Assembly: GCF_007995245.1 (NCBI RefSeq)
Contig: NZ_VCBA01000003.1
Coordinates: 1-64,000, forward strand
Direction: 5' to 3'
Origin: Tateyamaria sp. syn59
Lineage (GTDB): Bacteria; Pseudomonadota; Alphaproteobacteria; Rhodobacterales; Rhodobacteraceae
DNA: 64,000 nt
Part shown: in pieces, positions 52,821 to 63,769 of the stretch
How positions within the stretch are numbered: the first letter of the stretch is position 1
How the letters are laid out: every line of letters begins with the position of its first letter
Position numbers and translations under genes: made by a program
The notes under the pieces: model-generated
The model's database searches: none
Seen by the model: only the letters and a program-made list of their open reading frames with translations
Told to the model about the DNA's origin: nothing

Positions 52821-53717
52821 TCACAGCGCGTTCAAAACCCTGTCGGCCATCACAGCGGCGGACGTTCGGTTGTCGATACCCATCTTCTGAAAAATCTGCT
52901 CGAGATGTTTGTTCACTGTCCGCGCGCTCAGACCAAGGATGGCGCTGATGTCGCGGTTGGTTTTTCCCAGGGTCAGCCAATACAGCACTTCGGCTTCGCG
53001 CGGGGTCAGCGTGAAGGCTTCGGCGAGCACGTGTTCTTTGCTGTGTGACACGCGGCGCATCGGTTTGATCAGGATCTCGGGTGACGCTGTCATGCCGATG
53101 TACTGAAAGGTCAGTTCGCTTGTCTCGTAGGGTTGAACGGACGACACCGGCCTATTAGCGCACTCCGCCACCCACATCTTCCAATCAGGGCCCAGGGCCG
53201 TTGCATCGGTGGTGTTCAGGAAGTCGATCGCCTTTTGCGATCCCCACAGAACAGTGCCCTTCAGGTCGCATGCCAGAACGGTCCGCCCGGATGTATCGAG
53301 TGCGTCGCGGGCGCTTTGCAGAAGTCTTGAGTTGATGATGTGCGTGCTGAGCCGCGCAATGAGTTCTTCGACGACGACTGGTTTGGTGATGTAATCGACC
53401 CCACCGGATGCAAGACCTTCGAGAAGGCGCTCCTTTTCGGTCAGCCCGGTCATGAAGATAATAGGTGTGGTCACGGGGTCGGACCCGAATTTGAGTTCGC
53501 GGCAGGTCTCGAACCCGTCCATGCCGGGCATGACGGCGTCCATCAGGATCACATCCGGTTCCACGCGGCGGGTCAGTTCAATCGCAGATTTCCCGTCGGT
53601 CGCCACAAGCACGGTGATCCCGCTGTCCTCAAGTGCGGCAGACACCATGCCCAGAGTATCGGGCGTGTCATCGACGACGAGCGCGATGCACTTTCGGCCA
53701 AAGTCAGTCAATACCAT
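52821..53717 (-). CDS. LuxR-type response regulator paired with the permease-kinase
   Basis: The 298-residue protein has an N-terminal receiver with VVDDTPD, the phospho-acceptor Asp near 58 in DVILMDAVMPGMDG and KP in DYITKPV. A middle segment (about 140-225) looks like a degenerate PAS domain (VLACDLKGTVLWGSQKAIDFLN). The LuxR helix-turn-helix is near 232-295 (LTPREAEVLYWLTLGKTNRDISAILGLSARTVNKHLEQIF). Its ATG lies within the last 14 bases of the kinase gene, so the pair is co-translated. The obvious candidate binding site is the palindrome at 57162-57183. Confidence 0.93.
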   Translation of the reverse strand: MVLTDFGRKCIALVVDDTPDTLGMVSAALEDSGITVLVATDGKSAIELTRRVEPDVILMDAVMPGMDGFETCRELKFGSDPVTTPIIFMTGLTEKERLLEGLASGGVDYITKPVVVEELIARLSTHIINSRLLQSARDALDTSGRTVLACDLKGTVLWGSQKAIDFLNTTDATALGPDWKMWVAECANRPVSSVQPYETSELTFQYIGMTASPEILIKPMRRVSHSKEHVLAEAFTLTPREAEVLYWLTLGKTNRDISAILGLSARTVNKHLEQIFQKMGIDNRTSAAVMADRVLNAL

Positions 53718-56700
53718 CTTGGGCGGCCTCCAAGATTTCGACGATCCCCGCTATGTCGAACCGATCCAGACGTTTTTCGAGCAGATCGAGCAGGCCTGTC
53801 TGGCCGCGGTTTTCGGCCCGCAGCTTGTCCAGATGCGCCCGTATGCCTGCCGGGTGGCCCAGCGTTGCGCTGTCCAGGAGAATTTGGCGGTCCTCCTCGG
53901 TCAGATCCTGTGACGCGGGTTTTTCCTCTTCATCTTCCGAGGCAAGCACGAGGGTGACCTTTAAAAGCTCGGCCACCTGCATCAGCAGGTCGTCCAGGTT
54001 GAAGGGTTTGGCGAGAAACGCGTCATGCAGCAGTGCCTTTTGCCCGGACATGTCCTCTTCGTCCGCGTGGCCAGAGATGACGACAATCGGAATGTTCGGC
54101 CAATCCCGCGCGCGTAGGTCATCGGCAAAGGACCAGCCATCGCGTTCGGGCATATCAATGTCCAATACGATAAGGTCCGGGGTGGCTTCCTGCAGCAACT
54201 GCTCGGCCAGATCCGCCGATGGTGCGAGCAGCACGACAAACCCGAGATTGGACAGGAACTGTTCGGTCAAGGTCAGGTGATTGACGTCGTCATCGACCAC
54301 AAGGATGGTCTTGCGCGGCCCGCTATAGCCGATCAGCGCAGGCTGTTGCACAGAGGTGTTCAGGTTTTCGGTGTCGAAGATGCTGGTCGAAATTGACGGG
54401 AGCATCATGCGTACCGAAAATGTGCTGCCTTGGCCCGGTGTGCTTTCCACCTCGATCCCGCCGCCCATGATCTCGACCAGAAGCTTGGTGATGGTCAGCC
54501 CCAGCCCGGAGCCTTGGCGGTCGGATCTGCCTGCGCGTTCAAACGGGCGCCAGATGCGGTCCAGGTTTTCTGGCGCGATGCCCATGCCGGTGTCTTTGAC
54601 GGTGATGACCGCGACCTCGTTCCGATAGGCCAGGTCCAGCGTGACATGGCCTTTGTCAGTGTATCTCAGGGCATTCGACAGCAGGTTTATGATGATCTGA
54701 CGCAAACGCTTTTCGTCGGTGCCGACGAGGGCCGGAAGCCTGCCGTGGGTGCTCCAGGTGAAGCATATGCCCTTTTCCTTGGCCTCCGCCTCAAAGATCG
54801 ACGCGGTTTGGCGCAAGAGCGCCCGGAGGTTGACCTTGTCACGCGCAATCTCAAGCCGGCCTGCCTCGATCCGTGAGATGTCGAGCAAGCCGTCGATCAG
54901 CCCGGCGAGGTGTTCCGAAGAGCGACGGATGCTACTGATCGAGACGCGCCAGGGTTCAAGATCGGGGTCTTTTTCAAGAAGCTGAGCAAAGCCGTAGATG
55001 GCGTTGAGAGGCGTGCGCAATTCGTGGCTGAGGCCAGACATGTAACGCGTTTTTGCGAGATTGGCGGCCTCGGCCTTTTCCTTGGCTGCCTGCAATGCAA
55101 GGTCGGTGCGTTCATGCGCGCGGATCTCCTTGAGCAGCAGTTTTGTCTGCCGCTCGGTCTCCTCCGTTGCGTTCCGCTGGCTTTCGCCGACAAGGACAAA
55201 CATCCACACCGCGACACCGATGACGATCAGCACGGTACAGAAGATGATGGTCAGAACGGCGTCGAGCGTGTCGTCATTGGCGAAGGCGCGGATCACCAAC
55301 AGCAACGCCCCAAAGCAAAGCGACAGAACGGTTGTGGTCAAAAGGTAGCGTGACAAGCGCGACATCATCGCTTTGGCCATGGGCGCGGGTAGGGTGGCGT
55401 GCAGCGCGTCGCTAACCGTTTCGTCAAGGCGGCCGTGCGGTTTGCACTGGTCGTGGCAGGCGGCATCAAGACTGCAGCAGAGCGAGCAAATGTTCCCGAC
55501 ATGGAACGGGCAAACGCTCGTGTCTTCGGCATCGAACCGGTATTCGCACACGGTGCAGGTTTGCAGCCCCTTTTGCACCGGTTCTGCAGTGTCGACCCGC
55601 GCGAGATAGTACCGCCCGCCCGTGGCCCAGGCGAGAATGGGTGCCAGAATGAAGGCGGTCAGCAAGGCGACGAATGACGAAAACGCCTGGACCAGCGGAC
55701 CGAAGACGCCCGCGTATGCGATCAGAGACACCACGCAGGCCACCACCATCGCGCCGATGCCGACCGGGTTCACATCGTAAAGGTGCGACCGCCGGAACTC
55801 GATGCCTTTGGGGCTGAGACCCAGCGGTTTGTTGATGACCAGATCAGCAACCAGCGCCCCGATCCAGGCCACGGCAACGTGGGAATAGAGGCCAAGGACA
55901 TGTTCCAGCCCGGTGAAAACGCCCAATTCCATCAGCATCACGGCGATTGCGACGTTGAACACCAGCCAGACCACCCGCCCCGGGTGGCTTTTGGTCAGCC
56001 GGGAAAAGAAATTGGACCATGCGATAGACCCTGCATAGGCGTTGGTGACATTGATCTTGAGCTGCGACAGGACGACGAAAACAGCCGTAAGCCCCAGCAC
56101 CAGAGCAGGGGAATTAAGGACCTGTTCGAACGCCGTGTAGTACATGCGGGTTGGGTCCGTCGCCTCTTCCATCGGTACGTTTTCACGGATGGCGAGCGTG
56201 ACGAGGTATGAGCCGGCCAGCATCTTGAGCATGCCGAGCACGGACCAACCGGGCCCCGCACAGACCAAGGCAATCCACCACTTGCGCTTGTCGCTTTTTG
56301 TCTGCGGCTCGGGCAAGAAGCGCAGGAAGTCGACTTGTTCCCCTATCTGCGCGACGAGTGAAAAGACGACCCCTGACGCCGCCCCCAGCATCAGCAATCG
56401 CGATGCGTCAGGCATTTCGGAACTGCCCATGAAACCGGTCCACATGTCGATGTCGTAGCCGACGAAGGCAAGCATGACGAAAGGAAGGATATGCAGCAGA
56501 ACCCAAAACGGCTGGGTCCATGCCTGGAACGCCGATATCTTGGAAAACCCGTGCAGCACCAGTGGGATCACCAGGACGGAGCTGGTGAGGTACCCAATAA
56601 ACAGCGGTATCCCCAACGTGAATTTGAGGGCGAGTGCCAGGATCGCCGCCTCGAGCGCGAAGAATATGAAGGTGAAGGACGCATAGATCAGCGACGTGAT

Positions 56701-57048
56701 CGTGGATCCGAGATACCCGAACCCGGCGCCGCGGGTCATGAGATCAATGTCGAGGCCGTACTTGGCTGCGTAATATGAAATCGGCAGTCCGGTCAGAAAC
56801 AGGATCGCGCCGACCAGCATGATTGCCACGATGGCGGTGTCGAACCCATACGTCAGCGTCAGGGTCGCGCCGATCGCTTCCAACGCGAGGAACGAGATCG
56901 ACCCGATGGCCGTGTTGGCCACGCGGCCATAGCTCCACCGCCGCGCGCGCCGCGCGGTGTAGCGCAGCGCAAAATCCTCCATCGTTTCGTTGGCCACCCA
57001 ACGATTGTAAGTCCGCTTTTCGCGGGTGGCGGTGAGATGTGCGAGCAT
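53704..57048 (-). CDS. NCS1 permease-histidine kinase-receiver fusion protein
   Basis: A 1114-residue fusion. Residues about 20-490 form an NCS1-type nucleobase/hydantoin permease with about 12 helices, opening MEDFALRYTARRARRWSYGR then VANTAIGSISFLALEAIGAT. Residues about 497-538 hold eight cysteines (C-X2-C-X11-C-X7-C-X2-CC-X5-C-X3-C), apt for zinc or an Fe-S cluster. Two more helices follow (about 565-625). The kinase part has SHELRTPLNAIYGFAQLL (phospho-His near 672), NLLSNALRYTDKG, DTGMGI and GSGLGLTI. A receiver (about 935-1050, Asp in LIVLDIDMPERDG) and a helical tail follow. It diverges from urtA and overlaps the LuxR-type regulator gene, which suggests that it senses a urea- or amide-related molecule. 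Confidence 0.92.
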   Translation of the reverse strand: MLAHLTATREKRTYNRWVANETMEDFALRYTARRARRWSYGRVANTAIGSISFLALEAIGATLTLTYGFDTAIVAIMLVGAILFLTGLPISYYAAKYGLDIDLMTRGAGFGYLGSTITSLIYASFTFIFFALEAAILALALKFTLGIPLFIGYLTSSVLVIPLVLHGFSKISAFQAWTQPFWVLLHILPFVMLAFVGYDIDMWTGFMGSSEMPDASRLLMLGAASGVVFSLVAQIGEQVDFLRFLPEPQTKSDKRKWWIALVCAGPGWSVLGMLKMLAGSYLVTLAIRENVPMEEATDPTRMYYTAFEQVLNSPALVLGLTAVFVVLSQLKINVTNAYAGSIAWSNFFSRLTKSHPGRVVWLVFNVAIAVMLMELGVFTGLEHVLGLYSHVAVAWIGALVADLVINKPLGLSPKGIEFRRSHLYDVNPVGIGAMVVACVVSLIAYAGVFGPLVQAFSSFVALLTAFILAPILAWATGGRYYLARVDTAEPVQKGLQTCTVCEYRFDAEDTSVCPFHVGNICSLCCSLDAACHDQCKPHGRLDETVSDALHATLPAPMAKAMMSRLSRYLLTTTVLSLCFGALLLVIRAFANDDTLDAVLTIIFCTVLIVIGVAVWMFVLVGESQRNATEETERQTKLLLKEIRAHERTDLALQAAKEKAEAANLAKTRYMSGLSHELRTPLNAIYGFAQLLEKDPDLEPWRVSISSIRRSSEHLAGLIDGLLDISRIEAGRLEIARDKVNLRALLRQTASIFEAEAKEKGICFTWSTHGRLPALVGTDEKRLRQIIINLLSNALRYTDKGHVTLDLAYRNEVAVITVKDTGMGIAPENLDRIWRPFERAGRSDRQGSGLGLTITKLLVEIMGGGIEVESTPGQGSTFSVRMMLPSISTSIFDTENLNTSVQQPALIGYSGPRKTILVVDDDVNHLTLTEQFLSNLGFVVLLAPSADLAEQLLQEATPDLIVLDIDMPERDGWSFADDLRARDWPNIPIVVISGHADEEDMSGQKALLHDAFLAKPFNLDDLLMQVAELLKVTLVLASEDEEEKPASQDLTEEDRQILLDSATLGHPAGIRAHLDKLRAENRGQTGLLDLLEKRLDRFDIAGIVEILEAAQDGID

Positions 57049-57161: not shown

Positions 57162-57183
57162 GTATACGTCATTTAACGTATAC
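57162..57183. promoter_or_regulatory. perfect 8-6-8 palindrome, candidate operator of the LuxR-type regulator
   Basis: GTATACGT (57162-57169), six bases, ACGTATAC (57176-57183). It lies in the 218-base gap between the kinase gene and urtA, 84 bases before the urtA ATG and 114 bases before the kinase ATG. Length and symmetry suit a dimeric LuxR-family regulator, and the TACGT-N6-ACGTA core fits that class. Such a perfect repeat is unlikely by chance in so short a gap. Confidence 0.65.
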
Positions 57184-57266
57184 TGCGCCGCAGCATTACC
57201 CGCGATCCTTTCGTTAGCGGGTGGTTTGGAATCGCCCAATTGTTGAGCACTTCACTAGGAGGCGAT

Positions 57267-58538
57267 ATGTCCAACGAGAATTCTGACAACAAAGTCAATG
57301 GGGTAAGCCGCCGTGCGGTACTGGCTGGAGGCACGGCCCTCACGGCGTCCCTGTTCATGCCAAAGAACCTGCGCGCCCAGGACTTCGCGACGGCGGATAT
57401 CAACACCACCGGACTGGCGGTGACGGACGATACCGTCACAATCGGCATTCTGCATTCGGTCACCGGCACCATGGCGATCTCGGAAACGGGTTCGGTTCAG
57501 GCGGAAAAGCTGGCGATTGAACAGATCAACGCGCAGGGCGGCATTCTGGGTCGCAAGATCGAATACATCCAGGAAGACGGCGCGTCTGACTGGCCCACTT
57601 TCGCGGAAAAGGCCCGCAAGCTGCTGGTGAACGACAAGGTTGCGTCGGTCATGGGCTGCTGGACATCGGCCAGCCGCAAGGCTGTGCTGCCGGTGTTCGA
57701 ACAGCACAACGGCTTTTTGTACTACCCGACCTTCTATGAGGGTCTCGAGCAGAGCCCGAACGTCATCTACACCGGGCAGGAAGCCACGCAGCAGATCATT
57801 GCGGGCCTCGACTGGGTCAACCAGACGAAGGGTGCCAAATCCTTCTACCTGCTGGGGTCCGATTACATCTGGCCGCGCACATCGAACAAGATCGCGCGCA
57901 AGCACATTGAAAACTTCATGGAGGACTGCAAGGTCGTGGGCGAAGAGTACTACCCGCTCGGCCACACGCAGTTCAACTCGGTCATCAACAAGATCCGCCT
58001 GCGCAAGCCGGACGTGATCTATGCCATCGTTGTTGGTGGGTCGAACGTGGCATTCTACAAGCAGCTCAAGGCGGCAGGCATCGACCCGACCGAAGAGGGC
58101 CCGATTGTCTTGACCATTTCGGTGACCGAGGACGAAATTCGCGGCATCGGCGGCGAAAACATCGAAGGCTCCTACGCCTGCATGAAGTACTTCCAGTCGC
58201 TCGAGAACGAGAACAACATCGCGTTCGTCAAAGCGTTCAAAGAGATGTGGGGCGAGGACATCGTCATTGGCGACGTGACGCAAGCCGCCTATCTCGGTCC
58301 GTGGCTGTGGAAAGCGGCCGTCGAGAAAGCGGGCAGCTTTGACGTCGACAAGGTGCGCGAAGCAAGCCCCGGGATCGAGCTGACGACGGCGCCGGAGGGC
58401 TACGTGAAGGTACACGAGAACCATCACCTTTGGTCCAAGACACGCGTAGGCCGGGCACAGGCCGACGGGCAGTACGAGGTTGTGTTCGAGACGGCGGAAC
58501 TGGTCGAGCCTGACCCTTTCCCCGAGGGTTACCAGTAA
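57267..58538 (+). CDS. urtA: urea/short-chain amide ABC transporter substrate-binding protein
   Basis: The 423-residue binding protein has a Tat signal (SRRAVLAGGTALTASLF) and then the UrtA/FmdD-type sequence VTIGILHSVTGTMAISETG, IEYIQEDGASDWPTFAEKAR, GCWTSASRKAVLPVFE and LYYPTFYEGLEQSPNVIYTG. The last of these is typical of urea-binding UrtA. AGGAGGCGAT precedes ATG 57267. It heads an operon with urtBCDE and fmdAB. A stem-loop follows, as often seen after genes for abundant binding proteins. Urea is the default ligand; formamide or acetamide are also likely given fmdA. Confidence 0.92.
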   Translation: MSNENSDNKVNGVSRRAVLAGGTALTASLFMPKNLRAQDFATADINTTGLAVTDDTVTIGILHSVTGTMAISETGSVQAEKLAIEQINAQGGILGRKIEYIQEDGASDWPTFAEKARKLLVNDKVASVMGCWTSASRKAVLPVFEQHNGFLYYPTFYEGLEQSPNVIYTGQEATQQIIAGLDWVNQTKGAKSFYLLGSDYIWPRTSNKIARKHIENFMEDCKVVGEEYYPLGHTQFNSVINKIRLRKPDVIYAIVVGGSNVAFYKQLKAAGIDPTEEGPIVLTISVTEDEIRGIGGENIEGSYACMKYFQSLENENNIAFVKAFKEMWGEDIVIGDVTQAAYLGPWLWKAAVEKAGSFDVDKVREASPGIELTTAPEGYVKVHENHHLWSKTRVGRAQADGQYEVVFETAELVEPDPFPEGYQ

Positions 58539-58614: not shown

Positions 58615-59541
58615 ATGTTCGCCGATTATTCCATGTCCGAGTTGGGCGCGATCTTTGCCATGCAGGGCTTTGCCGGACTGATCCTGTTCTCCGTCTTTGT
58701 GCTTATGGCGCTGGGGCTGGCGATCATTTTCGGCCAGATGGGCGTGATCAACATGGCCCATGGCGAATTTATGATCCTCGGCGCCTACGTGACGTATCTG
58801 ACGTCGAACGTGTTTGCCGACTATATGCCTGCCTTGTTCGGAACCTACTTTTTCGTCGCGATGTTGCTGGCCTTTCTGGCCTCCGGCGCGTTGGGGTTAT
58901 TGGTCGAATGGTCGCTGATCAGGCACCTCTACAAGCGTCCGCTTGATACGCTTTTGGCGACCTGGGGGCTGAGCCTGATCCTGCAACAGACCTATCGCAG
59001 CGTGTTCGGCGCGCGCGAGGTTGGTGTGTCTATTCCGGATTGGATGATGGGGTCACTGCCGCTGACCGATCTTATCGAAATCCCGATCAACGGAATCTTT
59101 GTCATGGTGCTGGCGGTCAGCATTTCTGCCGCCGTCTACGTGATGATGTTCCGATCCACCTGGGGCAAACAGGTGCGTGCGATCAACCAGAACCGCGTCA
59201 TGGCGGGTGCGGTCGGTATCAATACGGAATGGACCGACCGGTTGACCTTTGGCATCGGCTGCGGCGTTGCGGGTGTCGCGGGCTCTGCCTTTACGATGAT
59301 CGGGTCCACAGGTCCCACCGCGGGTCAGCTTTACATCGTCGACACGTTCTTGGTCGTGGTCTTTGGCGGCGCGGGCTCGCTCCTTGGCACCATCGCCTCT
59401 GCGTTCTCCATCAGCCAGGCCCAGTCGATCATGGAGTTCTTCCTCTCCGGGTCCATGGCCAAGGTTCTGACACTGCTGGTGGTGGTCGGGATCCTGATGA
59501 TCCGCCCGCAAGGTCTCTTCTCCTTGAAGCTGCGCAAGTAA
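58615..59541 (+). CDS. urtB: urea ABC transporter permease UrtB
   Basis: The 308-residue permease has about eight hydrophobic helices. UrtB features are LMALGLAIIFGQMGVINMAHGEFMILGAY (near 30-58), LATWGLSLILQQTYRSVFGAREV and TWGKQVRAINQNRVMAGAVGINTEW. GGAGGTGCC lies before the ATG. It pairs with UrtC to form the channel. The gap to urtA is 76 bases and contains the stem-loop. Here too the substrate may include short-chain amides. Confidence 0.93.
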   Translation: MFADYSMSELGAIFAMQGFAGLILFSVFVLMALGLAIIFGQMGVINMAHGEFMILGAYVTYLTSNVFADYMPALFGTYFFVAMLLAFLASGALGLLVEWSLIRHLYKRPLDTLLATWGLSLILQQTYRSVFGAREVGVSIPDWMMGSLPLTDLIEIPINGIFVMVLAVSISAAVYVMMFRSTWGKQVRAINQNRVMAGAVGINTEWTDRLTFGIGCGVAGVAGSAFTMIGSTGPTAGQLYIVDTFLVVVFGGAGSLLGTIASAFSISQAQSIMEFFLSGSMAKVLTLLVVVGILMIRPQGLFSLKLRK

Positions 59542-59553
59542 GGGGTGCGTCCG

Positions 59554-60678
59554 ATGCAATCATCTGCCTTCATGAGCCGTAAAGAGATCATAGGCTTCGC
59601 CATTCTTGCCGCCCTGATCTTCCTCGTTTTGCCCGCCGTCTTGGACAATTTCCGCCTCAACCTGTTTGGCAAGTACCTGACCTATGCGTTCGTTGCCGTC
59701 GGACTTGCCCTGTGCTGGGGGGCGGGGGGCATTCTGAGCCTCGGGCAGGGGGTGTTCTTTGGCCTCGGGGGGTATTGCATGGCGATGTTCCTCAAGCTTG
59801 AGGCATCGACGCCGGAAAATACTGCGATCCAGTCCACGCCCGGCATTCCCGATTTCATGGACTGGAACCAGCTTACTGAACTGCCTTGGTGGTGGGAGCC
59901 CTTCTACTCCTTGCCTCTTGCGCTTCTTGCAGTGGTTGCCGTGCCGGTCATGTTCGCCTTTGTGATCGGGGTGGCGATGTTCACCCGTCGCGTGGGGGGC
60001 GTGTACTTCGCCATCATTACGCAGGCCTTTGCAGCCATCATGACGATCCTGATCATCGGGCAACAGGGCTACACCGGTGGTGTGAATGGCATCACCGACC
60101 TGCGCACCCTGATGGGGTGGGACATCCGGACCGATGAAGCCAAGACCATCCTCTATTTCGTGAACGGCGCTCTGTTGTTCGCTGTTCTGCTGATCGCGCA
60201 ATACGTGCGCAAGTCCAAGCTGGGACGCCTTTTGATCGCGATGCGCGATCAGGAAGACCGCGTGCGCTTCTCCGGCTACAACGTCGCAAATTTCAAGATT
60301 TTCATCTTCTGCCTTGGCGCCGCGTTTGCCGGTATCGGTGGCGCAATGTTCACCCTGCAGGTGGGCTTTATGTCGCCCACGCTGGTCGGCATCGTGCCGT
60401 CAATCGAGATGGTGATCTTCTGCGCGGTCGGTGGACGGCTGTCTATCCTTGGCGCGGTGTACGGTGCGCTTCTGGTCAACTGGGCGAAGACCTCCCTGTC
60501 CGAAAGCTTCCCGGAACTCTGGCTGCTGGGCTTGGGCGGGCTATTTATCGCGGTTGTGATGTTTTTCCCGAATGGGCTGGCGGGCGTCTGGTCCGAAAAG
60601 ATCGAGCCTCGGCTGTTGGCTCTGTTCAGCAAAAAGAAACCCGACACATCCGCGCCCGACGGCGCCCCGGCGGAGTAA
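59554..60678 (+). CDS. urtC: urea ABC transporter permease UrtC
   Basis: The 374-residue permease has about nine to ten hydrophobic helices and the UrtC-specific segments YAFVAVGLALCWGAGGILSLGQGVFFGLGGYCMAMFLKLE and QGYTGGVNGITDLRTLMGWD. A charged C-terminal tail (SEKIEPRLLALFSKKKPD) lies in the cytoplasm. I prefer ATG 59554, with GGGG upstream, over a GTG at 59545. It starts 12 bases after urtB. Confidence 0.93.
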   Translation: MQSSAFMSRKEIIGFAILAALIFLVLPAVLDNFRLNLFGKYLTYAFVAVGLALCWGAGGILSLGQGVFFGLGGYCMAMFLKLEASTPENTAIQSTPGIPDFMDWNQLTELPWWWEPFYSLPLALLAVVAVPVMFAFVIGVAMFTRRVGGVYFAIITQAFAAIMTILIIGQQGYTGGVNGITDLRTLMGWDIRTDEAKTILYFVNGALLFAVLLIAQYVRKSKLGRLLIAMRDQEDRVRFSGYNVANFKIFIFCLGAAFAGIGGAMFTLQVGFMSPTLVGIVPSIEMVIFCAVGGRLSILGAVYGALLVNWAKTSLSESFPELWLLGLGGLFIAVVMFFPNGLAGVWSEKIEPRLLALFSKKKPDTSAPDGAPAE

Positions 60679-60683
60679 GCGGC

Positions 60684-61424
60684 ATGAACGAGCGTTTTAT
60701 CCTCAAGGTCGAAGATCTGACTGTGTCGTTCGATGGTTTCAAAGCCGTCGATCACCTGAGCTTTTATGTCGAGCCGAACGAATGCCGGGTGATCATTGGC
60801 CCCAATGGGGCGGGCAAGACCACCGTCCTTGATCTGATCTGCGGACGGACCAAGGCGACCGAAGGGTCTGTGGTTTTCAAGAACAAAGAGCTGCTGTCCA
60901 TGCGTGAGGACCAGATCGTGCATGCCGGGGTTGGTCGCAAGTTCCAGACGCCATCGGTCTACGAAGATCTGACGGTGTTTGAGAACCTCGAACTCAGCTA
61001 CCCCAAGGGACACGGCGTGTTTGGCGCGCTGGCCTTCAAGCGCGATGAAAAGGTGCGTGCGCGCATCAAGGACATCGCCGAGACGATCTTTCTTGCCGAT
61101 CAACTCGACGAAAAGGCGGCATTCCTCAGCCACGGTCAAAAGCAATGGCTGGAGATCGGTATGCTGCTGATTCAGGACCCCCAGCTTTTGATGTTGGACG
61201 AGCCGGTGGCTGGCATGTCGGTGGCCGAACGCAAGAAGACCGCCGAATTGCTCAACCGTATCATCCAGGACCGATCCGTGATCGTGATCGAGCATGACAT
61301 GGGTTTTGTCGCCGACATCGCGACCCGCGTGACGGTTCTGCACCAGGGCAAAACGCTGTCCGAAGGCACGATGGAGCGCGTCCAGAACGACCCGAAAGTG
61401 GTCGAAGTCTACCTCGGCCATTGA
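60684..61424 (+). CDS. urtD: urea ABC transporter ATP-binding protein UrtD
   Basis: The 246-residue ATPase has Walker A GPNGAGKTTVLDLICGRTK (near 40), the UrtD-type signature LSHGQKQWLEIGMLL (near 150) and Walker B LLMLDEPVAGMS. The phrase VGRKFQTPSVYEDLTVFENLE is characteristic of this subunit. GGAG lies ten bases before the ATG. It sits five bases after urtC and works with UrtE on the cytoplasmic face. Confidence 0.95.
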   Translation: MNERFILKVEDLTVSFDGFKAVDHLSFYVEPNECRVIIGPNGAGKTTVLDLICGRTKATEGSVVFKNKELLSMREDQIVHAGVGRKFQTPSVYEDLTVFENLELSYPKGHGVFGALAFKRDEKVRARIKDIAETIFLADQLDEKAAFLSHGQKQWLEIGMLLIQDPQLLMLDEPVAGMSVAERKKTAELLNRIIQDRSVIVIEHDMGFVADIATRVTVLHQGKTLSEGTMERVQNDPKVVEVYLGH

Positions 61425-61437
61425 AGGAGCACCCGGC

Positions 61438-62127
61438 ATGTTGACCGTCAAATCCCTGTCCGCGTCCTACGGCGAAAGCGAAGTCCTTCACGGTCTCGAC
61501 CTGACTGTGCAACCCGGCGAGATCGTCGCGATCATGGGGCGCAACGGTATGGGCAAGACCACGTTTATGAAAACGCTCATGGGCATCATGCCCGAAAAGA
61601 CCGGCGACGTGACAGTCGCGGAGACGCCGGTCACCGGAATGAAATCGCACCAGCGCGTGGCCAATGGCATCGCCTATGTGCCCCAAGGGCGCATGATCTT
61701 TTCCGCCATGACCGTACAGGAAAACGTGGAGACGGGCCTGACCGTCACCGGGCAATCAAAGGTACCCGATGACATCTACGAGCTGTTCCCGGTCTTGCTT
61801 GAGATGAAGGACCGGCGGGGCGGCAATCTGTCGGGCGGACAGCAACAGCAGCTGGCCATCGCGCGCGCGCTCGCGTCGAACCCGAAAGTGCTGCTTCTGG
61901 ATGAACCAACCGAGGGCATTCAGCCTTCGATTATCCGCGAAATGGCCCGCACGTTGCGCAAGATCCGCGATGAAAAGGGGCTGAGCATTGTCGTGTCCGA
62001 ACAGGTGCTTAGCTTCGCGCTCGACGTCGCCGACCGGGTGATGGTGATCGAAAACGGCACCTTTGTGCATGACAGCCCCCGTGCGGGCATCGACGAGGCC
62101 AAGGTCTCGAAATTCCTTTCCGTATGA
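61438..62127 (+). CDS. urtE: urea ABC transporter ATP-binding protein UrtE
   Basis: The 229-residue ATPase has Walker A GRNGMGKTTFMKTLMG (near 36-51), the signature LSGGQQQQLAIARAL (near 131) and Walker B LLLDEPTEGIQPSII. The PQGRMIFSAMTVQENVETGL segment is typical of UrtE. GAAGGAG precedes the ATG. The gene is 22 bases upstream of fmdA, so transport and hydrolysis share one transcript. Confidence 0.95.
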   Translation: MLTVKSLSASYGESEVLHGLDLTVQPGEIVAIMGRNGMGKTTFMKTLMGIMPEKTGDVTVAETPVTGMKSHQRVANGIAYVPQGRMIFSAMTVQENVETGLTVTGQSKVPDDIYELFPVLLEMKDRRGGNLSGGQQQQLAIARALASNPKVLLLDEPTEGIQPSIIREMARTLRKIRDEKGLSIVVSEQVLSFALDVADRVMVIENGTFVHDSPRAGIDEAKVSKFLSV

Positions 62128-62149: not shown

Positions 62150-63379
62150 ATGGCAGATACATTGATTTCGGTGGAACTGAGCGAGAGCCCGCACACCAAC
62201 GAAAACGTCCACAACCGCTGGCACCCGGACATTCCGATCAACGTCTGGGTCGAACCGGGGGATGACTTCAGGATTGAAACCTATGACTGGACAGGGGGTC
62301 AGATCAAAAACGACGACGACGCGTCCGATGTGCGCGATGTGGAGTTGGAACAGGTCCATTACCTGTCCGGACCCATCGGTGTGAAGGGTGCGGAACCGGG
62401 CGATCTGCTGGTGGTCGAGATCCTCGACATCGGGGCCAAGGAAGAGATGCTTTGGGGATTCAACGGCTTCTTTTCCAAGCAGAATGGCGGCGGTTTCCTG
62501 ACAGAGCATTTTCCCGAGGCGCAGAAGTCCATCTGGGATTTCGACGGGATGTTCACCAAATCGCGGCATGTGCCCGGCGTTAAATATGCTGGCTTGATCC
62601 ATCCCGGTCTGATCGGCTGTCTGCCGGATCGCAAGATGCTCGACATGTGGAATGCACGCGAAACGGCGTTGTTCAACACCGATCCGGAGCGTGTCCCGCC
62701 TCTGGCTGCGCTGCCCAACACGCAAAGCGCGCATATGGGGGCGATGAAAGGCGATGAACGCGATGCCGCCGCGGCCGAAGCTGCACGCACCGTTCCGCCC
62801 CGGGAACACGGTGGCAACTGCGATATCAAGGACCTGAGCCGTGGGGCGATCTGCTATTTCCCGGTCTATGTTGACGGTGCGGGGCTTTCGATGGGCGATC
62901 TGCACTTCAGCCAGGGTGATGGTGAAATCACGTTCTGTGGTGCCATCGAAATGGCCGGTTGGCTGCACCTCAAAGTGTCATTGGTGAAGGAAGGGATGAG
63001 CAAATACGGGATCAAGAACCCGATCTTCAAACCATCCCCGATCACGCCCAAATACGACGACTATCTGATCTTTGAAGGTATCTCGGTCGATGAGAGCGGT
63101 GAACAGCATTATCTTGATGTGCATATCGCCTATCGCCAGGCCTGCCTCAACGCGATCGAGTATTTGAAGAAGTTCGGCTATTCCGGCGCGCAGGCCTATG
63201 CGATCCTCGGCACCGCTCCGGTGCAGGGGCACATTTCGGGCGTGGTCGATATTCCAAACGCGTGTGCCACGCTTTGGCTGCCGAACGACATCTTTGAATG
63301 GGACATGATGCCCAATGCCGAAGGGCCGACCAAGCATTTGGACGGCAGTGTAGACATCCCCCTGGCTGCAGATTTGTAA
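62150..63379 (+). CDS. fmdA: formamidase
   Basis: Hydrolyses formamide (and to a lesser degree other short amides) to formate and ammonia. At 409 residues it has the FmdA/acetamidase-formamidase family length and segments: HNRWHPDIPINVWVEPGDDF at the N terminus, LSGPIGVKGAEPGDLLVVEI near 80, FPVYVDGAGLSMGDLHFSQGDGE near 240-265 and the C-terminal GHISGVVDIPNACATLWLP. AGGAGG precedes ATG 62150. No urease gene lies in the window, so formamide is the only amide whose hydrolysis is covered here; the formate could feed the dehydrogenase at 19479. Confidence 0.95.
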   Translation: MADTLISVELSESPHTNENVHNRWHPDIPINVWVEPGDDFRIETYDWTGGQIKNDDDASDVRDVELEQVHYLSGPIGVKGAEPGDLLVVEILDIGAKEEMLWGFNGFFSKQNGGGFLTEHFPEAQKSIWDFDGMFTKSRHVPGVKYAGLIHPGLIGCLPDRKMLDMWNARETALFNTDPERVPPLAALPNTQSAHMGAMKGDERDAAAAEAARTVPPREHGGNCDIKDLSRGAICYFPVYVDGAGLSMGDLHFSQGDGEITFCGAIEMAGWLHLKVSLVKEGMSKYGIKNPIFKPSPITPKYDDYLIFEGISVDESGEQHYLDVHIAYRQACLNAIEYLKKFGYSGAQAYAILGTAPVQGHISGVVDIPNACATLWLPNDIFEWDMMPNAEGPTKHLDGSVDIPLAADL

Positions 63380-63439: not shown

Positions 63440-63769
63440 ATGCCCGTCTATGAATACCGATGCGATGATTGTGGGGTTTTCGAGGCCATGATGCCGATGC
63501 ATGCCTTCGCCAACCCATGCGATTGCCCGGATTGCGGCCAATCAGCGCCCCGTGTTTTGTTCAGCGTCCCGCACATCTCGGGGATGAGTTCCAGCACTCG
63601 ATACGCACACGAAACCAATGAACGCGCGGCCGACAGCCCGAAAAGAAGCAGTCACGGCCCGGGATGCAGTTGCTGTGGCGGTGGGGCGAAGAAGAAAAGC
63701 AAAACGCTGTATCGTCCGGATGGAACAAAGAGCTTTCCAACCAAGCGACCGTGGATGATTTCACACTGA
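63440..63769 (+). CDS. fmdB: FmdB family zinc-ribbon protein
   Basis: This 109-residue protein of the FmdB family has a zinc ribbon at the N terminus (MPVYEYRCDDCG, Cys8/Cys11, then Cys29/Cys32 in CPDCG) and a second Cys cluster near the C terminus (GCSCCGGG). In Methylophilus methylotrophus the fmdB gene lies with fmdA and was proposed to be regulatory. CCGGAG precedes ATG 63440. The 60-base gap after fmdA suggests it is still in the same operon. Confidence 0.88.
   Translation: MPVYEYRCDDCGVFEAMMPMHAFANPCDCPDCGQSAPRVLFSVPHISGMSSSTRYAHETNERAADSPKRSSHGPGCSCCGGGAKKKSKTLYRPDGTKSFPTKRPWMISH

Follow-up and report, generated by a model that had tools for sequence, protein, structure and literature searches.

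A hybrid histidine kinase with an NCS1-type permease domain, a probable receptor for formamide and related small amides beside a urtABCDE-fmdAB operon

In a 64,000-nucleotide stretch of the Tateyamaria sp. syn59 genome (contig NZ_VCBA01000003.1, positions 1 to 64,000; hereafter the window), the gene for an 1114-residue hybrid sensor histidine kinase with an NCS1-type membrane domain (53704..57048, minus strand) overlaps the gene for a LuxR/NarL-type response regulator and diverges from a urtABCDE-fmdAB operon. Our results make it probable that kinase and regulator form a two-component system for formamide and related small amides, including urea in some relatives, in which a former NCS1-type permease serves as the receptor and which drives urtABCDE-fmdAB. 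In this model, an external small amide would bind in a pocket between transmembrane helices (TM) 1 and 6 and TM3 and TM8, and the ensuing rearrangement would pass via a cysteine cluster and an extra helix pair to the HisKA domain and its phospho-acceptor H675, from which the phosphoryl group would reach the LuxR-type regulator. The regulator is predicted to bind a palindrome at 57163-57182 and to turn on the operon; the encoded ATP-binding cassette (ABC) transporter would then import the amide, and its hydrolysis would yield ammonia and formate.

The hybrid kinase and its membrane domain

The kinase was delineated from its open reading frame (ORF), Pfam matches and a structure model, and an initial annotation, made from the sequence alone, had its coordinates, strand, length and order of permease, cysteine cluster, kinase and receiver right. 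From the N-terminus, and on the minus strand throughout, it comprises an NCS1-type permease-like domain of the LeuT fold (residues about 23-478; 55615..56982), seen in the AlphaFold model and by fold and profile comparison; an eight-cysteine cluster (residues 498-535; 55444..55557), defined by cysteine conservation and probably a zinc site; an extra helix pair leading into the kinase (residues about 564-620; 55189..55359), modelled as helices 564-589 and 595-649 and presumably placed in the membrane; and the HisKA (residues 666-730; 54859..55053), HATPase_c (residues 777-882; 54403..54720) and receiver (residues 915-1024; 53977..54306) domains. The last three, for which the initial annotation had suggested a search, were all matched by Pfam. 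H675 is kept in 81 of 81 aligned kinase rows and the receiver aspartate D963 in 78 of 81, the other three having a gap there, and with the three domains these two phospho-acceptors make the protein a hybrid histidine kinase. Its ORF shares a 14-base-pair (bp) overlap, also anticipated by that annotation, with the ORF of the partner regulator (52821..53717, minus strand; 298 residues), in which Pfam finds a receiver with phospho-acceptor D60 and a GerE helix-turn-helix, the composition of LuxR/NarL response regulators. The tail of the kinase after its receiver (residues 1025-1114; 53704-53976) has no Pfam match and is weakly conserved.

The assignment of the membrane domain to the NCS1 type is supported by fold and profile comparison, which carry the claim, and not by Pfam. 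In an AlphaFold model of residues 1-650 with 70 relatives as input (predicted local distance difference test score 84.2, predicted template modelling score 0.84), comparison with the PDB placed CodB and Mhp1 at ranks 1-5 in Foldseek and 1-4 in VIA-align, with Z of 32.6 over 398 residues for CodB, 26-28 for Mhp1 and 24.4 for the next entry. A bridge in sequence is provided by a remote homologue from Pantoea ('cytosine permease'), which is 27.6% identical to a standalone permease homologue from Acidiphilium (E 8e-25) and matches PF02133, the NCS1 model, with 39.2 bits against a cut-off of 23.5. Compared by hhalign with five NCS1 proteins, a profile built from six standalone homologues, two remote homologues and three kinase rows (A3; PF02133 matches 2 of its 11 rows) scored 96.3% with an E of 2e-9 over 404 columns. 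As a control, A3 and a second profile without the remote members (A2; 45 kinase rows and six standalone homologues) were compared with four SSS proteins and scored 0.9% each (E 0.064 and 0.06), an NCS1 against SSS profile comparison scored 0.2%, and PF00474 (SSF/SLC5) had no match in the window kinase up to E = 1. PF02133 had no match up to E = 0.001 anywhere in the genome and none in the Acidiphilium, Moraxella, Acinetobacter and Methylovirgula standalone homologues; NCBIfam gave no NCS1-supporting match for the window kinase; and searches of PDB sequences returned nothing up to E = 10 with kinase residues 1-500 and nothing relevant with the Pantoea homologue and the A3 profile. The NCS1 membership claimed by the initial annotation therefore holds by fold and profile, with a negative SSS control, and fails by the PF02133 search. 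In Pantoea the gene for the remote homologue precedes one for a nitrilase-type hydrolase.

The TM8 sodium ligands of Mhp1, which we take to be S312 and T313, align with K331 and I332 of the kinase, a mapping that, for Mhp1 and CodB alike, depends on the alignments used. In CodB these ligands are T278 and T279 (PMC9379551). The TM8 hydroxyls of this sodium site (Na2) are not kept: residue 331 is Lys in 145 of 145 kinases and residue 332 Ile in 144 of 145, and the same two places hold Lys and Ile in six of six close standalone permeases. Because both hydroxyl ligands are replaced in sensors and carriers alike, sodium coupling at the Na2 place would be unlikely in either. H+-coupled NCS1 carriers exist (PMC13390362), so that the missing hydroxyls do not exclude NCS1 membership. 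In the remote NCS1 homologues (L138 and L175), Arg replaces the otherwise invariant TM8 Lys.

Gene linkage and the palindrome between kinase and urtA

The association of the kinase with urt, fmd or urease (ure) genes is far beyond chance. Our survey comprised 56 loci in 51 genomes (E 1e-106 or better, the window itself left out) from a draw across the phylum, less tied to the window, in which 62 of 398 genomes had a match at E <= 0.001; 17 weaker or partial matches, with 24-29% identity or in short pieces, were left out. Within about 8 kilobases (kb) upstream or 10 kb downstream, 54 of the 56 kinases lie near such genes, 37 of formamidase type and 17 of urea type (canonical urt, urease or both, without an fmd gene); in the remaining two the contig ends 387 and 0 bases upstream. 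The survey of fusion neighbourhoods that the initial annotation had proposed thus bears out the linkage it expected. A query-ranked set, consisting of the best 80 of 105 relatives from a scan of genome contigs ordered by likeness to the window, has 52 loci near formamidase-type genes, 10 near canonical urt or urease and 3 near both, and a homologue of the regulator is present in 72 of these 80 loci and in 50 of the 56 survey loci. In the window's own lineage fmdA is the steady partner of the kinase. Two survey loci (L202 and L209) have urt genes of the short type with an amidase-type gene and no FmdA-type match in the stretch; here the kinase is kept with a different hydrolase. In Sinorhizobium meliloti 2011 the kinase (L137) is carried by pSymB and diverges from urt genes of canonical type. 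Of 385 genomes drawn from the class, 27 match the standalone permease, and 25 of these matches (the window's own included) are kinase-length frames of 1124-1243 residues, with one fragment and one remote 24% match. Outside the Pseudomonadota, the kinase form was seen in Polyangiaceae.

The palindrome TATACGT-N6-ACGTATA (57163..57182, no strand assigned), a putative operator identified from genome and locus counts, lies upstream of both genes, 84 bp from the likely urtA ATG (57267) and 114 bp from the start of the kinase. The genome of 4.57 megabases contains it in a single place and its 16-bp core in two. We take the second core copy (C9:74930) as a chance occurrence and not as an operator: its inner bases differ and a reversed-pattern control also gave one copy. 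In the 330 bp upstream of the kinase the core form TACG-N8-CGTA is found in 84 of 120 loci, many of which are close relatives, and by context in 79 of 96 formamidase-type, 3 of 21 urea-type and 2 of 3 mixed loci (27 of 37 and 1 of 10 for the formamidase-type and urea-type loci of the survey alone). Other spacings of the core between 2 and 16 occur in at most 1 locus, shuffling of the 120 regions gave 0.35 cores on average and at most 3, and the next commonest 4-base palindrome of the same spacing is found in 7 of the 120. No palindrome is shared by more than 4 of the 21 urea-type loci. The LuxR-type regulator is the obvious candidate to bind the palindrome.

Ligand, transport and rival explanations

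Standalone homologues of the membrane domain are informative as to the ligand. In Acidiphilium (L063), fmdBA, the kinase and the regulator are followed by a 556-residue permease that has the cysteine cluster and no kinase part and shares 51% identity with kinase residues 8-538; the locus also contains urease genes, with no urtA detected. Plasmid pHY1 of Methylovirgula has the order fmdBA, kinase, regulator, permease, with an aliphatic amidase gene further on; in Moraxella osloensis, fmdBA faces a standalone permease and no kinase is listed within the stretch; on three Acinetobacter plasmids, two of which share one protein accession, the permease heads a urease cluster; and a Streptomyces plasmid carries a standalone permease too. 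Because this carrier adjoins now formamidase and now urease genes, it would most simply carry formamide and urea, and because most of the pocket is shared with the carrier, the sensor should bind the same compounds.

The sensors differ from the carriers at a few sites. In a comparison of 145 kinase rows (of which L231 is truncated, with gaps at 53, 56 and 57) with six close standalone permeases (L172, with the same protein accession as L132, was dropped), kinases have Phe (144 of 144) and permeases Tyr (6 of 6) at residue 53; Leu, Met or Cys (144 of 144) and Asp (6 of 6) at 56; Glu (144 of 144) and, in the six permeases, Gln or Phe at 57; Ala (142 of 145) and Gly at 134 in TM3; and Ala (145 of 145) and Ser (6 of 6) at 339. 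This contrast is to be read as a pattern rather than a statistic, the rows being mutually related and the six carriers coming from about three lineages. A separate draw of 140 rows gave the same contrast. Residues 53, 56, 57 and 339 lie in TM1 and TM8 near the presumed pocket; in our alignment residue 53 corresponds to Q42 of Mhp1 and F33 of CodB, a TM1 position adjoining the substrate (PMC9379551), and E133 to Mhp1 Q121. The presumed pocket residues common to sensors and permeases (E133, Q234, E237, Q238, D240, K331, N333, N336 and Y338) are intact in 145 of 145 kinases. Because all aligned kinases differ from the six close permeases at these TM1 and TM8 sites, and because the ammonium sensor kinase Ks-Amt5 offers a precedent, we favor a membrane domain that acts as a receptor and is predicted not to transport. 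The cysteine cluster is part of the carrier module and not of the kinase: six of its cysteines occur in all 145 kinases and the other two in 144 of them, and the Acinetobacter and Moraxella permeases keep four of them as two CxxC pairs. Two further loci (L181 and L203) encode the same membrane domain in frames of 894-899 residues with a kinase part that is 29-30% similar, fmdA downstream and no recognised regulator, possibly another fusion event.

The initial annotation had read the protein as a transceptor, a term that implies transport. A true transceptor would transport the amide through its membrane domain and sense it in doing so, as CbrA does with histidine; the SLC5 domain of CbrA transports histidine with or without its kinase (PMC7096432). 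The sensor kinase and regulator pair of the initial annotation stood, and the intact shared pocket would suit transport as well. However, every aligned kinase has the sensor-specific residue at 53, 56, 57 and 339, as do all but three at 134, which makes a receptor without transport at least as likely, and in Acidiphilium and Methylovirgula a separate standalone permease sits beside the kinase, as if the kinase did not do the transport; we therefore regard a transporting sensor as unlikely. Somewhat less doubtful, although still not the reading we prefer, is that the kinase binds urea, or equally urea and formamide, and that the system is a urea regulator. This would fit the 17 survey kinases near canonical urt and/or urease, the urease clusters headed by standalone homologues, the urease genes beside fmdBA in Acidiphilium, and the induction of the Methylophilus fmdCABDEF genes by formamide and by urea, as reported in a review (PMC10781810). 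It is countered by fmdA as the steady partner in the window's lineage and by the presence, at other places in the genome, of another urtABCDE-like cluster and of a urease. Formamide-linked and urea-linked kinases differ, at the thresholds set, only at positions 230 and 342, both conservatively, and are interleaved in the larger of our trees (12 urea rows, 10 changes), so that specificity may be shared between the two contexts.

Two other explanations concern the membrane domain's ligand. That it has none of its own and monitors the state of the ABC transporter or of the binding protein, the kinase reporting transporter activity, would account for the adjacency of kinase and urt genes in most survey loci, but we hold it to be improbable: the presumed ligand pocket is strictly conserved, and kinases with fmdA or urease genes and no urtA in the fetched stretch occur in L181, L203, L185, L193, L201, L214, L215, L229 and L230 and likewise in L063 and L131, where urt genes elsewhere in the genome are possible. 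A nucleobase or ureide ligand (allantoin, hydantoin or cytosine), with the urt/fmd operon as a downstream target, is highly improbable, even though CodB and Mhp1 are the best structural matches and the annotation 'allantoin permease' is attached to some of the standalone homologues. No allantoin, hydantoin or pyrimidine degradation gene is listed in the 11 annotated stretches around kinases or close permeases, with no specific search run for such genes, so that the ureide considered as a ligand in the initial annotation finds no support among the annotated neighbors, and a non-heterocyclic substrate is known for an NCS1 member, the metformin carrier MetT (PMC13390362).

Several observations weigh against a formamide and amide receptor of NCS1 descent as outlined above. 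PF02133 has no match in the window kinase up to E = 1, and the A2 profile compares less well with NCS1 than A3 does (75.4%, E 2.4e-5, 166 columns). In the query-ranked set, 15 of 80 loci, with Thiobacillus-like, Zoogloea and Polyangiaceae examples, have no urt, fmd or ure neighbor detected, and most of these are real exceptions because most have ample DNA upstream (nine about 10 kb or more, four 2.4-6.5 kb and two less than 1 kb). Very few urea-type loci have the palindrome, and the contrast between sensors and carriers has the character of a pattern noted above. The trees do not settle the number or direction of fusion changes: the standalone clade falls among kinase rows in the free tree, a constraint holding all kinase forms in one clade is not rejected (approximately unbiased test, p-AU 0.146), and in the larger tree the standalone rows need one change, with a support of 11. 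Two Thiobacillus/Hydrogenophilales loci (L067 and L068) have kinase and regulator with no urt, fmd or urease neighbors detected; an MscS-type channel lies near the former kinase and UPF0176 and a methyltransferase near the latter.

The divergent operon and comparison with known systems

The operon on the plus strand begins with a urtA-like substrate-binding protein gene (57267..58538), for which the ATG at 57267, after AGGAGG, is likelier than the listed TTG at 57240, and continues with genes for a urtB-like permease of a short, 308-residue form (58615..59541), a urtC-like permease (59545..60678), urtD-like (60684..61424) and urtE-like (61438..62127) ATPases, the formamidase FmdA (62150..63379; NF045496, ATG at 62150 likelier than the listed 62063) and the zinc-ribbon protein FmdB with a C-terminal RPWMISH (63440..63769; listed from 63386, the later start being probable). 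All five Urt proteins score above their NCBIfam cut-offs and FmdA reaches 756.7 bits against a cut-off of 500, in agreement with the divergent urtABCDE-fmdAB recognised in the initial annotation. Contig 7 of the source genome holds a second such cluster with its genes in urtABCDE order, an assignment based on ORF order and Pfam; its UrtA is 40% identical to the UrtA of the window, and its UrtB has 659 residues against 308. On contig 4, a urease alpha subunit scores above its cut-off. In Methylosinus trichosporium, urt genes of the longer-UrtB type directly adjoin urease; together with the second cluster, this makes the short urt form beside fmdA a paralogue. That the genome has another urt cluster and a urease at other places suggests that the window operon serves formamide-type amides and is not simply one for urea, which modifies the earlier label of urea/amide uptake operon. 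With UrtA and UrtB differing in this way from the other copy, urea is no more than a possible substrate of the window transporter despite the family scores, and the authors who described urtABCDE beside a Pseudomonas veronii formamidase suggested that it takes up formamide (PMC13209695). On contig 7, after the second cluster, come a separate histidine kinase of the CHASE5 type and another ORF on the opposite strand (L096, G000:C7:36000-52000).

The window kinase resembles the SLC5-STAC kinases CbrA, CrbS and RpuS in combining a LeuT-fold transporter domain, a histidine kinase and a partner regulator (PMC7096432, PMC13022988). It differs from them in that its permease is NCS1-like rather than SSS, matching neither PF00474 nor the SSS profile, and in its linker, an eight-cysteine cluster and a helix pair; Pfam lists neither a STAC nor a PAS domain there, from a library that may lack a STAC model. 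With Ks-Amt5 it shares the recruitment of a nutrient transporter as receptor; in that protein, bulkier residues and binding residues of the first helix, including Glu31, accompany binding of ammonium that is not efficiently translocated (PMC5764959). The transporter folds of the two are unrelated, non-transport is only predicted for the window kinase, and the available part of that paper describes no uptake or hydrolysis operon. CodB and Mhp1 are the closest known fold, with corresponding helix 1 break and TM3 and TM8 pocket positions, but they lack a fused kinase, and the window domain departs from them in its missing PF02133 match, in K331 and I332 at the TM8 sodium ligands and in its predicted small acyclic ligand. 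The Methylophilus fmdCABDEF cluster likewise has genes for a formamidase, for ABC uptake of amides and urea and for a putative regulator, and no such sensor kinase is mentioned in the available text of the review (PMC10781810).

Neither an NCS1-type kinase nor a urt-fmd sensor is described among the literature matches listed, a scope outside which subscription papers largely fall, and those matches include no direct bacterial membrane receptor of such a type for external formamide or urea. We tentatively suggest that urea and formamide might be handled by a so far unrecognised subfamily of NCS1 type, with the cysteine cluster and the invariant TM8 Lys as its marks, and that this subfamily might include standalone carriers with Asp56, Gln57 or Phe57 and Ser339 along with kinase-fused, non-transporting receptors with Leu56, Glu57 and Ala339. 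If so, these proteins would constitute a widespread class of membrane receptors in Pseudomonadota and some Myxococcota that recognise urea and short-chain amides outside the cell and whose formamidase branch has an operator of its own. In many cultured bacteria the family supplies a defined set of candidates, namely a receptor, its regulator, an operator and a target operon. The natural pairs of carrier and receptor, with nearly the same pocket and five positions apart, would allow a direct test of how a transporter changes into a receptor.

The family is also found on Klebsiella plasmids, where a similar cluster has already been discussed for urinary-tract growth. On the Klebsiella pneumoniae resistance plasmid NZ_CP069875.1 (L136), the same kinase stands beside urtABCDE and a formamidase, as in the published 'UTS' urtABC-amiF cluster, with which we infer from gene content that L136 is identical. 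The UTS paper reads urtABC-amiF as urea uptake, and the terms 'histidine kinase' and 'sensor' occur in it 0 times (PMC13060141). A homologue of the regulator is present in the L136 DNA, although absent from the gene table, and 342 Klebsiella plasmid records match the permease domain. We rejected a shortened FmdA as the identity of the 336-codon formamidase of L136, since it matches the amidase (AmiE-like) type and not the FmdA type; a nitrilase-type formamidase of normal length is more likely. In the Tateyamaria genome itself, a 934-residue frame at G000:C7:28995-29477, with a weak SSF match below cut-off and a kinase match nearby, is possibly a kinase of the CbrA/CrbS type.

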